DNA from: Roseburia hominis A2-183
GTDB lineage: Bacteria; Bacillota; Clostridia; Lachnospirales; Lachnospiraceae
Direction: 5' to 3'
DNA: 64,000 nt
Assembly: GCF_000225345.1 (NCBI RefSeq)
Contig: NC_015977.1
Coordinates: 1,595,501-1,659,500, forward strand
Shown here: one piece after another, positions 50,113 to 53,140 of the stretch
Layout of the letters: the number at the start of each line of letters is the position of its first letter
Position numbering within the stretch: the first letter of the stretch is position 1
Program-made: the position numbers and the translations under genes
Notes under the pieces: generated by a model
The model's database searches: none
Told to the model about the DNA's origin: nothing
The model's input: the letters and a program-made list of their open reading frames with translations, nothing else

Positions 50113-51261
50113 ATGTATAAGATTATGACACCGGGACCTACGCAGGTCAAAGAGAATGTCCGCATGGCGCGCAGTTTTCCCTGCACCAATCCGGATCTGG
50201 ATGAAACTTTCGTAGATTTTTATAAGGAGACCTGTGAACTGATCAGCCGCCTGCTGCACACTGGGAATGAGACCCTGATTTTAGGCGGAGAGGGAATTCT
50301 GGGGCTTGAGGCTGCCTGTGCCTCCCTGACGGAACCGGGCGATCCGGTACTGGTGCTGGATAACGGCGTATACGGCAGAGGGTTTGCTGATTTCGTTTCC
50401 ATGTATGGCGGAAAGCCGGTTCTGTATTCCGTGGATGAGAAAAATCCGATTGATCCGGCCGCCCTGGAAGAATATTTAAAGGAACATCACGATTACAAAT
50501 ATGCAACGCTCGTGCACTGCGATACCCCGAGCGGCATGTTAAATGACATCTCTGCGCTTTGTCCGCTTCTGAAAAAATACGGGATACTCACGGTGGTGGA
50601 TTCCGTCTCCGGCATGTTCGGCGAGGATGTGCGCCTGGATGATTTTCAGATTGATCTCCTCTGCGGCGGTTCCCAGAAAGCCGTTTCGGCGCCTCCGGGA
50701 CTGACGTTTGTGACGGTGAGTGATGCGGCATGGGCAGCCATCGATGGCAGAAGTGTACCGATTGCCTCTTTTTATGCAAACCTTAAGGTGTTTGAGGGAT
50801 ATTACGAGAAAAAATGGTTTCCGTACACCATGCCGATCAGTGATATCTACGGACTGCGCGCCGCGTTCGACAATATCGCGGGCGATCCGGATATGCTGGC
50901 GCGTCATGCACGGATCGGTGAGGCATGCAGGGCGGCAGTCCGCGCAGTGGGACTGAACTTACACCTTGCATCCGGTTTCTCCAATACCGTCACGGTGTTT
51001 GACGTCCCGAAAGAGACGACCGCGGATGCCATTTTACAGACCATGCGTCAGAAGCACGGTATCATGCTGGCAGGATCGTTTGACTCCCTAGCGGGGCAGG
51101 TGATCCGTATCGGACACATGGGTAGCAATGCGAACGTGGTGGACATGATCGAGACGTTAGATGCATTGGATGACACCCTGAGGGAACTGAATGTTCCGCT
51201 GAAAGGGCAGCTTCGCATGATCTTTCAGGAGGAAGTGTCCAAAAAGGGGCTGGTACTTTAG
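50113..51261 (+). CDS. PLP-dependent class V aminotransferase
   Basis: A 382-residue fold-type I enzyme of the alanine-glyoxylate / serine-pyruvate aminotransferase group. The opening 'IMTPGPTQVKENVRMA' is diagnostic, 'VVDSVSGMFGEDVRLDDF' holds the PLP Asp, and Lys189 in 'CGGSQKAVSAPPG' should bind PLP. The same family includes pyridoxamine-pyruvate aminotransferase and 2-aminoethylphosphonate transaminase, so the substrate is not settled. GGAGG lies before the ATG. It is convergent with the MATE gene. Confidence 0.86.
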   Translation: MYKIMTPGPTQVKENVRMARSFPCTNPDLDETFVDFYKETCELISRLLHTGNETLILGGEGILGLEAACASLTEPGDPVLVLDNGVYGRGFADFVSMYGGKPVLYSVDEKNPIDPAALEEYLKEHHDYKYATLVHCDTPSGMLNDISALCPLLKKYGILTVVDSVSGMFGEDVRLDDFQIDLLCGGSQKAVSAPPGLTFVTVSDAAWAAIDGRSVPIASFYANLKVFEGYYEKKWFPYTMPISDIYGLRAAFDNIAGDPDMLARHARIGEACRAAVRAVGLNLHLASGFSNTVTVFDVPKETTADAILQTMRQKHGIMLAGSFDSLAGQVIRIGHMGSNANVVDMIETLDALDDTLRELNVPLKGQLRMIFQEEVSKKGLVL

Positions 51262-51384
51262 AGGGCAGTGAATTTTGAAGCGATAAGTAATATGCCAGAA
51301 AACACAGCATGTAGATTTCAGCTGGAACTGCATAGGATACAATTATTTGAAAAAAATGAGAGCATTTCTTCCTGACGGAGGTTT

Positions 51385-51699
51385 GCATCTGATTCCGTGT
51401 CTCTTCCACGTTTGGACTCTCCCGGTGTGTGTCCGACAAGCCACAGACAATGAGCGGACTTTTTAGTGCCCCTAGTGCCACCGCTTCACAGACAATATAA
51501 AACCGCGCGAACCGAAACTCGTTGGCATCTGCTATTGAAAACATGGCAGATGCCAATTCAAACATCGGCTTCGCGCGGTTATGTTTTGCTCAGTGGTGGC
51601 ACAAGGGGCACGCACAAAAGTCCTAAAATTGTCTGTTAGCTTGCGGACACAGTCCGTGGAGTGTTCCAAACTTGGAAAGACACGGATCATCGCAGATGC
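51385..51699. repeat. Giant 315-bp imperfect palindrome
   Basis: The whole stretch folds back on itself about a centre near 51538. Pairs from outside in: GCATCTG (51385-51391) with 51693-51699; TTCCACGTTTGGA (51404-51416) with TCCAAACTTGGAA (51665-51677, one mismatch); GTGTCCG with CGGACAC; CAGACAAT (51444-51451) with ATTGTCTG; GTGCCCC and GTGCCACC with GGTGGCAC and GGGGCAC; AACCGCGCGAA with TTCGCGCGGTT; TTGGCATCTGC with GCAGATGCCAA. It fills the 450-base gap 51262-51711 between two convergent genes; bases 51262-51384 hold nothing I can name. Confidence 0.92.
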
Positions 51700-51711
51700 T
51701 TTTGACAGATG

Positions 51712-53046
51712 TTATTTTCTGCTTCCGACCGCCTTATGGTAGATATAAGCGGCGATGACCGAGGTGACTGCTTCGGTGATCCAGAAAGCATGCCATACTC
51801 CGGTTGGTCCAAAGATACGGCACAATACAAAGGCTGCCGGGATCATGAGAATTACATAGCGGAACAGCGATATGACAAGGGACTGCGTTCCTTTTCCAAG
51901 TCCCTCCAAGGCGCCGGAGGCTGTGACGGACACGGAGGAGATGATAAAGCCTGCGCTAATGATGCGCAGTGCGGTTCCTCCGGCTGCGATCGTCTCGGCA
52001 TTTTCGGTGAACAGTTCCATCAGACCGCGCGATGCCACCAGGCATAAAATTGTGCCGAGCGCCATAATGACAGCACTCATCGCAAGCGTAATCTCATAGA
52101 TCTTTTTCACGCGCTTCTGCTCGCCGGCACCGTAATTATAGCCGATCAGCGGACGCATGCCCTGGACAATGCCGTTTGCCGGAAGATAGAGGAAGGTCTG
52201 TAATTTGTAATAGATTCCCAGAATGACCACATAGATCTGGGAGTAAGCTGCCAGAATACCGTTTAAGACGGATACTAACAGCGATGGCAGGGCAAGATTT
52301 AAGATGGCAGGAACTCCGATCGAGTAGAGACGATGGTCGGTTTCCTTATGAAAAGCAAGGTATTCTTTGCGGATTTTGACCGGGATCGGGCGCTTGTTGT
52401 ACACCGTCAGGTAAAGAAGGAGGGTACACAGCTGACCGATCGCTGTGGCAATCGCTGCGCCGGCGATACCAAGCCTCGGGAAAATTCCGATGCCGAAAAT
52501 CAGGAGCGGGTCTAAGATAATATTAGTAATACTTCCGCACAGCAGGCCGATCATGGATACTTTCATGCGTCCCACGGACTGAAAGATTTTCTCAAAGGAA
52601 AGATTCGCCATGGTGATTGTCGAAAACGCAAATACGATCACCGCGTACTCCATTCCCATCTGATATACCTGCACATCGTTGGTGAACATGTCCAGGAAAG
52701 CCGGCATGATGGAGATGCTTAACACAGTGACGACAACGCCGTGGATGAGTGCCAGAACAAGTCCCTGTGTGGCGGCGCGGTCGGCGCCTTTTTTGTCGCC
52801 TGCTCCGAGAAAATAGGCAATCAGTGCATTGATACCAACGCCGAATCCGATGGCAAGCGCGTTGACAAAATTCTGAATCGGGAAGACGAGGGACAGCGCT
52901 GTCATGGCATTCTCATTGATTCTGGCGACGAACAGACTGTCTACAATATTATAAAGTGCGTTTACCATCATGGATATGACCATCGGAAGCGCCATGGAGG
53001 TAAGCAGCGGCAGGATAGGTTTTTCTTTCATAAATGTTTCGTTCAT
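51712..53046 (-). CDS. MATE family efflux transporter
   Basis: A 444-residue exporter with twelve membrane segments: 'LPLLTSMALPMVISMMVNAL', 'YNIVDSLFVARINENAMTAL' and 'AIGFGVGINALIAYFLGAGD' are standard MATE motifs. It pumps cationic drugs or metabolites with Na+ or H+. Start at 53046 follows AGGAGG; the upstream in-frame ATG would translate the leader. It has its own promoter, a hairpin leader and ends 12 bases from the giant palindrome. Confidence 0.93.
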   Translation of the reverse strand: MNETFMKEKPILPLLTSMALPMVISMMVNALYNIVDSLFVARINENAMTALSLVFPIQNFVNALAIGFGVGINALIAYFLGAGDKKGADRAATQGLVLALIHGVVVTVLSISIMPAFLDMFTNDVQVYQMGMEYAVIVFAFSTITMANLSFEKIFQSVGRMKVSMIGLLCGSITNIILDPLLIFGIGIFPRLGIAGAAIATAIGQLCTLLLYLTVYNKRPIPVKIRKEYLAFHKETDHRLYSIGVPAILNLALPSLLVSVLNGILAAYSQIYVVILGIYYKLQTFLYLPANGIVQGMRPLIGYNYGAGEQKRVKKIYEITLAMSAVIMALGTILCLVASRGLMELFTENAETIAAGGTALRIISAGFIISSVSVTASGALEGLGKGTQSLVISLFRYVILMIPAAFVLCRIFGPTGVWHAFWITEAVTSVIAAYIYHKAVGSRK

Positions 53047-53104
53047 GTGGTATTTCCTCCTATATAATAGTCTGGGTTTATTGTATCCAGGATAAAACAG
53101 AAAA

Positions 53105-53140
53105 CGCCACACAATGACTCAAAAGAATCATTGTGTGGCG
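53105..53140 (-). promoter_or_regulatory. Perfect 13-bp hairpin in the MATE leader, candidate attenuator
   Basis: CGCCACACAATGA (53105-53117) and TCATTGTGTGGCG (53128-53140) pair perfectly around a 10-base loop. In the MATE transcript the hairpin is followed by GTTTTCTGTTTT, a weak U tract. An upstream leader segment, GGTGTGG (complement of 53163-53169), could pair with the CCACAC arm instead, giving a possible switch. Confidence 0.55.

Follow-up and report, generated by a model that had tools for sequence, protein, structure and literature searches.

A Dispersed Family of Giant Imperfect Hairpins and Its Placement Between Convergent Genes in Roseburia hominis A2-183

Introduction

In Roseburia hominis A2-183, almost the entire gap between two converging genes can be folded into one long, interrupted hairpin. 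The question raised by this locus is what such a palindrome represents. A preliminary description, made from the letters alone, had offered a foldback or MITE-like element, a long structured RNA, or a barrier between converging transcripts. Long near-perfect palindromes are generally regarded as unstable in bacteria; in this genome, dozens of long palindromes persist, with both arms co-evolving.

Results and Discussion

The Palindrome and Its Extent

The window denotes the whole 64-kb stretch of DNA that was analysed, and positions refer to it. The palindrome reported at 51385..51699 proved to be real. RNA folding of this segment yielded −189.3 kcal/mol for the plus strand and −183.4 kcal/mol for the minus strand, corresponding to z-scores of −19.4 and −16.4, respectively, and none of 100 shuffled sequences per strand was equally stable. 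In a scan allowing arms of up to 350 nt, it was also the only hairpin of the window with a score of at least 30 (46.3; arms of 131 and 135, loop of 49), compared to a maximum of 13 in the single shuffled window used as a control. A chance palindrome was ruled out on these grounds. The features of the locus are as follows.

50113..51261, plus strand: left convergent neighbour, class V aminotransferase-like (NCBIfam class-V-type families, below curated cut-offs)
~51280..51384, plus strand: remnant of the left outer arm, GCGATAAGTAATAT... as in other copies; the right partner arm is missing
51385..51699, plus strand: palindromic core of the window copy (L009), both arms present (fold, BLAST, hairpin scan, covariance model)
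51466..51611, plus strand: conserved apical core of 146 nt, matched end to end by the cross-species covariance model R2
51488..51509, plus strand: 22-mer ACAGACAATATAAAACCGCGCG, found at 72 places in the genome with at most three mismatches
51516..51521, plus strand: left side of a nearly fixed internal loop, AACTCG
51558..51564, plus strand: right side of this loop, TCAAACA
51712..53112, minus strand: right convergent neighbour, MATE family efflux transporter (NCBIfam, above cut-off)

Genes were called as the longest open frames, without a trained gene finder. Of the two convergent neighbours named previously, the MATE gene was recognised with confidence, while the aminotransferase identity is to be read with the sub-threshold family scores given above. 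The repeated motifs were located as described: GCATCTG at 51385-51391 and 51525-51531, CAGATGC at 51547-51553 and 51693-51699, and CACAGACAAT twice in the left arm (51442-51451 and 51487-51496).

The extent of 315 bp applies to the paired core, whereas the element itself is longer, its left outer arm having been kept in the window copy. The right outer arm has been lost; pairing stops at 51699, and 12 nt lie between this point and where the MATE gene ends. This copy has no outer pairing, and 123 nt separate the left stop codon from the paired part. Its apical core was scored by model R2 at 160.6 bits on the plus strand and 45.1 bits on the minus strand. The palindrome had also been said to carry no open frame of its own. 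On the minus strand, however, an open frame of 167 codons (51062-51565) crosses the left arm; it is probably a chance frame.

Copies in the Genome

The genome comprises 3,592,125 bases in one contig. BLAST against it yielded 40 scored copies with 84–100% identity, the window copy included, and further queries gave more. The core 22-mer occurred at 72 places with up to three mismatches, 50 of them exact, while its reversed control occurred at none. With the cross-species covariance model, 79 distinct places (two of them partial) were found among the matches listed, spread over the whole chromosome at a median spacing of 32 kb. At about 600 nt each, these 79 places would make up an estimated 1.3% of the genome. 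For analyses of context and alignment, 73 of them were read with their flanks.

The first 40 copies were single hairpins, with lengths of 510–690 nt in 36 cases and an arm identity of 0.72–0.80 in arm alignments. In 39 of the 40, both arms went on pairing beyond the core over a further ~100 nt or more per side, the window copy being the exception. A typical copy is thus one imperfect hairpin of ~600 nt with arms of about 250–320 nt. The shared ends of the element lie around GGAAYTGCCGCAATAAGC, and an outer end sequence around GGAAYTGCCGCAATAAGCATA is common to recent copies. In older copies, the outer arms vary by locus yet still pair. Internally deleted derivatives, L084 (about 130 bp) and L085, consist of the outer parts only. 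No gene was found inside the element in its copies, although the arms of some copies extend into coding sequence. Terminal inverted repeats, the lack of an open frame, multiple copies and intergenic position are traits shared with MITEs.

A general class of giant palindromes was considered and rejected: all 10 hairpins scoring at least 40 in 400 kb of this genome were copies of the family, nine being flagged by motif and the tenth assigned through its coordinates.

Two further observations concern variants and neighbouring repeats. Ten copies (L059–L061, L069–L072, L074, L075 and L079) have a core longer by ~30 nt, owing to a longer apical part. A second repeat, which consists of ~85-bp units in tandem and contains two small palindromes (GGATTCATATTAGAAGTTCCTGCGGAACTT...GCGCAGAAAGCAGCGC), was seen in L084 (about 1145–1400) and L086 (about 1140–1230), and one inverted copy of it sits within a truncated copy of the giant hairpin.

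Relatives in Other Genomes

BLAST with the window copy gave no match in 59 other genomes, and exact 18–20-mer patterns gave none in a search that may not have covered the window's own record. A spaced pattern matched 17 stretches, 16 in Roseburia or other Lachnospiraceae MAGs and one in Arthrospira that was judged to be chance. Covariance models, with the source genome counted, detected the element in at least 5 of 62 genomes within the genus, at least 2 of 392 within the order and at least 4 of 397 within the family, each search being run with a capped number of candidates and stricter filters. Relatives beyond the species were thus missed by DNA identity and found by covariance models.

The carriers were G000, G061, G071, G072, G073 and G077 within the genus and, outside the genus but within the family, G403, G593 and G462. 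Taken together, covariance models and a palindrome survey added eight species of the family to the one in which the element was first seen. The relative in G061, a 266-nt hairpin, came from the survey of 400 kb, in which seven top hits of this genome were a stretch of N, and was confirmed at 60 bits; this genome had scored without a match in the genus search yet carries a relative, so the figure of 5 of 62 is an undercount. The copy in G462 (L216; covariance match with E = 1.6e-5) is a 358-nt, nearly perfect hairpin with the family loop at its apex. In alignment A4, comprising 16 chosen sequences, its left half was not correctly aligned, and this copy was inspected by eye. Its outer part consists of about 100 nearly perfectly paired, very GC-rich bases.

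Other origins were also considered. A plasmid, phage or viral-contig origin was rejected, as no match was obtained. No Rfam model, those for introns included, reached its gathering score in the window, and seven loci searched at E ≤ 0.1 gave only two matches, both far below the gathering score. A known Rfam family was ruled out on this basis.

Placement Between Convergent Genes

When gene context was scored for the 73 copies (ORFs of at least 80 aa), 45 were convergent, 24 tandem and 4 divergent. In 464 kb of the same genome, 59 of 405 ORF pairs were convergent (ORFs of at least 100 aa, copy-holding gaps included); the enrichment corresponds to a binomial p of 4e-20, calculated across these differing ORF cut-offs. 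For 44 of the 45 convergent copies (one was skipped), the median gap was 617 nt and the hairpin covered a median of 97% of it, with at least 80% covered in 41. Median distances between the arm ends and the flanking stop codons were 1 and 5.5 nt. The suggested barrier between converging transcripts agrees with the data as regards placement, since the hairpin fills the convergent gaps of this genome. Strand relative to tandem neighbours varied (17 vs 7).

Outside this genome, convergence was weaker. It was observed for 10 of 22 copies in four other genomes of the genus, a count unaffected by locus L107, which is tandem on either strand. In G593, three of four scorable loci (five fetched) were convergent, compared to none of five in G403.

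The Base of the Hairpin and Signs of Insertion

The sequences flanking 27 recent copies were compared within and between loci. Complementarity was higher within loci at 1–5, 6–10 and 11–15 nt (p = 0.04, 0.0002 and 0.02, respectively); farther out, the p values were 0.52 at 16–20 nt, 0.05 at 21–30 nt and 0.59 at 31–50 nt. The complementary flanks amount to a base stem that is specific to each locus and comparable in size to a terminator stem. A TTTT run lay no more than 18 nt from the right end in 14 of the 27 copies (control 6) and AAAA at the left end in 12 (control 4), with both runs in 6; in another set of 40 copies, each run was present in 12 (controls 3 and 4). Of the traits of an intrinsic terminator, the base stem and the position at gene 3′ ends were observed; the T-run, seen in the 14 of 27 and 12 of 40 copies mentioned, is enriched but by no means general, and the same is true of the A-run. 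Some older copies, read by eye, have locus-specific outer arms of ~35 bp, above the usual length of a terminator stem.

No sign of target duplication was found in the 27 recent copies: the longest direct repeat averaged 4.67 within and 4.66 between loci (p = 0.52), and in-register repeats of 2–6 bp showed no convincing excess. The foldback or MITE-like reading is supported by the dispersed copies and by compensatory pairing across species (described below), but not by the duplication expected of a classical MITE.

The same data bear on the view that the element is neutral, inserting anywhere and surviving only at gene ends, with neither terminator targeting nor function. Such a view has been published for pneumococcal repeats, which are likewise enriched between convergent genes (PMC3049150), and most copies read in other genomes are not between convergent genes. 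In R. hominis, however, pairing reaches both stop codons, where random insertion would leave unpaired flanks, and the locus-specific base pairs exceed the cross-locus control. We regard a purely neutral element as very improbable.

Paired Evolution of the Arms and the Internal Loop

Alignment A1 held 57 of the 73 copies, with the window copy L009, the truncated copies L053, L068, L073, L076 and L078, and the 10 copies with the longer apical loop omitted. Alignment A2 held 29 of 30 non-redundant rows, L051 being left out for its converted apex. Alignment A3 comprised 39 cores from five species, namely 21 of 22 relatives (L113 omitted) and 18 copies from R. hominis; the window copy was not among its rows.

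In A3, 95.4% of cells were in standard pairs, and 30 of 38 pairs had changed on both sides. Covariation, scored on a structure derived from the same alignment, reached 0.698, compared to 0.211 after shuffling and at most 0.153 in slid controls. On terminal branches within the R. hominis genome, 111 double Watson–Crick changes were counted in core pairs, against about 6.5 expected by a rough estimate that assumes independence. The preliminary description had named two findings that would refute it: arms that are an assembly artefact, and homologous sites that lack copies and compensatory changes. Copies as well as compensatory changes were observed, and relatives occur in independent genomes; an assembly artefact is therefore very unlikely and was rejected.

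Between the covarying stems lies an asymmetric internal loop whose left side reads AACTC and whose right side reads TCARACA. It was exact in all 39 sequences of A3 and in 70 of the 73 copies of R. hominis, with one base changed in L011 and L045 and the loop lost in L051. Elsewhere, it was seen in G462, in 4 of 5 copies of G403 and in each of the 4 copies of G593 that could be scored; the G061 relative has it with a single base different.

This loop, together with covarying flanking stems in five species and its recognisable form in nine, is what a structured non-coding RNA family could display. Under that explanation, the function would reside in the RNA (processing, protein binding, or 3′-end stability of both mRNAs), the loop would bind a protein, and the repeats would have been dispersed either as genes or through recombination. 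If selection acted on a single RNA strand, G-U should outnumber A-C among one-sided changes. In stems paired in at least 90% of copies, G-U did exceed A-C (54 vs 32, p = 0.023). Over all pairs, however, the two were nearly equal (227 vs 208, p = 0.39), as they were in the cross-species set (33 vs 27 cells), which argues against the RNA reading. The asymmetry was significant at one of four thresholds, two intermediate ones being non-significant, and no RNA strand is therefore claimed. The variable strand relative to tandem neighbours and the Rfam results, with no gathering-score match in the window and two weak matches in seven loci, also speak against this explanation, which appears rather unlikely. 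Near-equality of G-U and A-C is more readily reconciled with a folded DNA strand than with a single RNA strand; the same holds for RNA made from both strands, as expected for a bidirectional terminator.

In L051 and L174, one apical arm has been overwritten with the sequence of its partner, and the loop has disappeared. Arm conversion thus happens, and part of the covariation may stem from it. Another explanation relies mainly on replication errors: hairpin-templated copying between arms and into flanks would enlarge the palindromes and keep them perfect without selection for structure, copy number being due to ordinary recombination. Consistent with it are the arm replacements themselves, the near-symmetry of G-U and A-C, the nearly perfectly paired outer bases of the G462 copy, and locus L220 in G593. 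There, a terminator-like hairpin with a T-run lies on the left, and the right side is an inverted copy with an A-run; since an apparently whole terminator is present in an inverted duplicate, the locus fits inverted copying of a flank, not insertion into a loop. Conversion would erase the loop, however, so its persistence, exact or with one base changed in 72 of the 73 copies and present in other genera, argues for selection on the loop. Convergent placement would also be left unexplained. Replication errors as the main explanation are considered quite improbable.

Proposed Origin and Function

The reading we prefer, to which we give an even chance of being correct, is that of a foldback element, MITE-like and non-autonomous, whose folded strand is recognised and which has settled in the terminators of convergent genes, acting there as a bidirectional terminator. 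Dispersal, single-hairpin architecture, paired evolution, the loop and, in this genome, placement are observations, whereas mobility, an enzyme, folded-strand recognition and termination are inferred. Recognition would be by a trans-acting enzyme that reads the bases left unpaired, and nearly invariant, in the folded single strand. The element would enter the loop of an existing intrinsic terminator, whose local stem would become the base of the giant hairpin. Once in place, it may serve as a terminator or insulator for both converging genes, which would help to preserve pairing, and copies would presumably also be corrected arm against arm. No autonomous relative, parent insertion sequence or transposase came to light in the analyses described here.

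A broader proposal is held only tentatively and is, on balance, doubtful: a new mobile class that moves as a giant folded strand, is recognised through the AACTC/TCARACA loop and enters terminator loops without target duplication, so that ordinary terminators of convergent genes would be replaced genome-wide by bidirectional barriers of ~600 nt. No described element of such size and with such a loop was met, and the family is ranked here as a form of dispersed palindromic repeats, with a real chance of being a class of its own.

The copies constitute a replicated natural experiment on convergent-gene terminators, hairpin-targeted insertion without target duplication, and arm-to-arm conversion. 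Should the element have an enzyme that recognises it, this would be a recombinase or transposase acting on a folded strand, its recognition loop already known and its target, terminators, predictable.

Comparison with Known Systems

ERIC elements are grouped with the MITE-type repeats, which are multi-copy, intergenic, palindromic and non-coding. The present family resembles MITEs, BOX and RUP in being multi-copy, intergenic, non-coding and palindromic or stem-loop-forming, and modular BOX elements reach up to 637 bp (PMC10969869 and PMC3049150). It differs from MITEs in that recent copies lack target duplication and the whole element is one hairpin.

REP/BIME elements with their RAYT are extragenic palindromes that are possibly recognised as a folded single strand. 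The likeness to them lies in the extragenic palindromes and the difference in size, REPs measuring 20–40 bp (PMC3733652) compared to ~600 nt here. Genes for Y1 transposases were absent from 3 of 7 carriers searched (G061 included) and present in 4 of 7 other genomes, for which the lack of the element is itself uncertain. A REP/RAYT system was ruled out, given the size of the hairpin and a Y1_Tnp distribution that does not track the element.

Integron attC sites are likewise imperfect hairpins in which particular bases stay unpaired, and it is the folded strand that is recognised. Pairs of core sites matching an attC-like consensus were found in none of the 73 copies and in one of 73 shuffled sequences; since the R and L core sites are lacking from the copies, attC and integrons were ruled out.

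Within the open PMC literature, a description of this element was not found; an unnamed model among the 250 palindromic candidate RNAs of PMC8040213 may correspond to it. The nearest described analogue in behaviour appears to be the pneumococcal SPRITE. Like the present element, SPRITE is a dispersed, gene-free, terminator-like hairpin with AAAA/TTTT at its ends; it is overrepresented between convergent genes and close to 3′ ends, and target duplication is not established for it (PMC3049150). As described, the two differ in size and make-up: an 18-bp duplex plus a T-rich tract for the far smaller SPRITE, against ~600 nt with arms of about 250–320 nt and a fixed internal loop here.

Bidirectional intrinsic terminators share the position between convergent genes, the symmetrical stem and the compensatory changes (PMC5381666). 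In Bacillus cereus, the same source describes compensatory change as proceeding mostly through G-U, which is not the clear pattern in the present element. The size of ordinary hairpins at a gene end was read for plsC, the gene adjoining copy L024. A hairpin scoring above 12 and spanning 32–71 nt was found at the plsC 3′ end in 12 of 16 relatives, and a giant hairpin downstream of plsC in none of the 16, five of which have the element elsewhere. The element is about ten times longer than these hairpins, repetitive, and marked by a conserved loop.

At L024 itself, which lies at a plsC/prsA-like junction, the two neighbours are not side by side in relatives having both, and this copy may therefore occupy a rearranged junction. 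Repeats of such length may mediate inversions.
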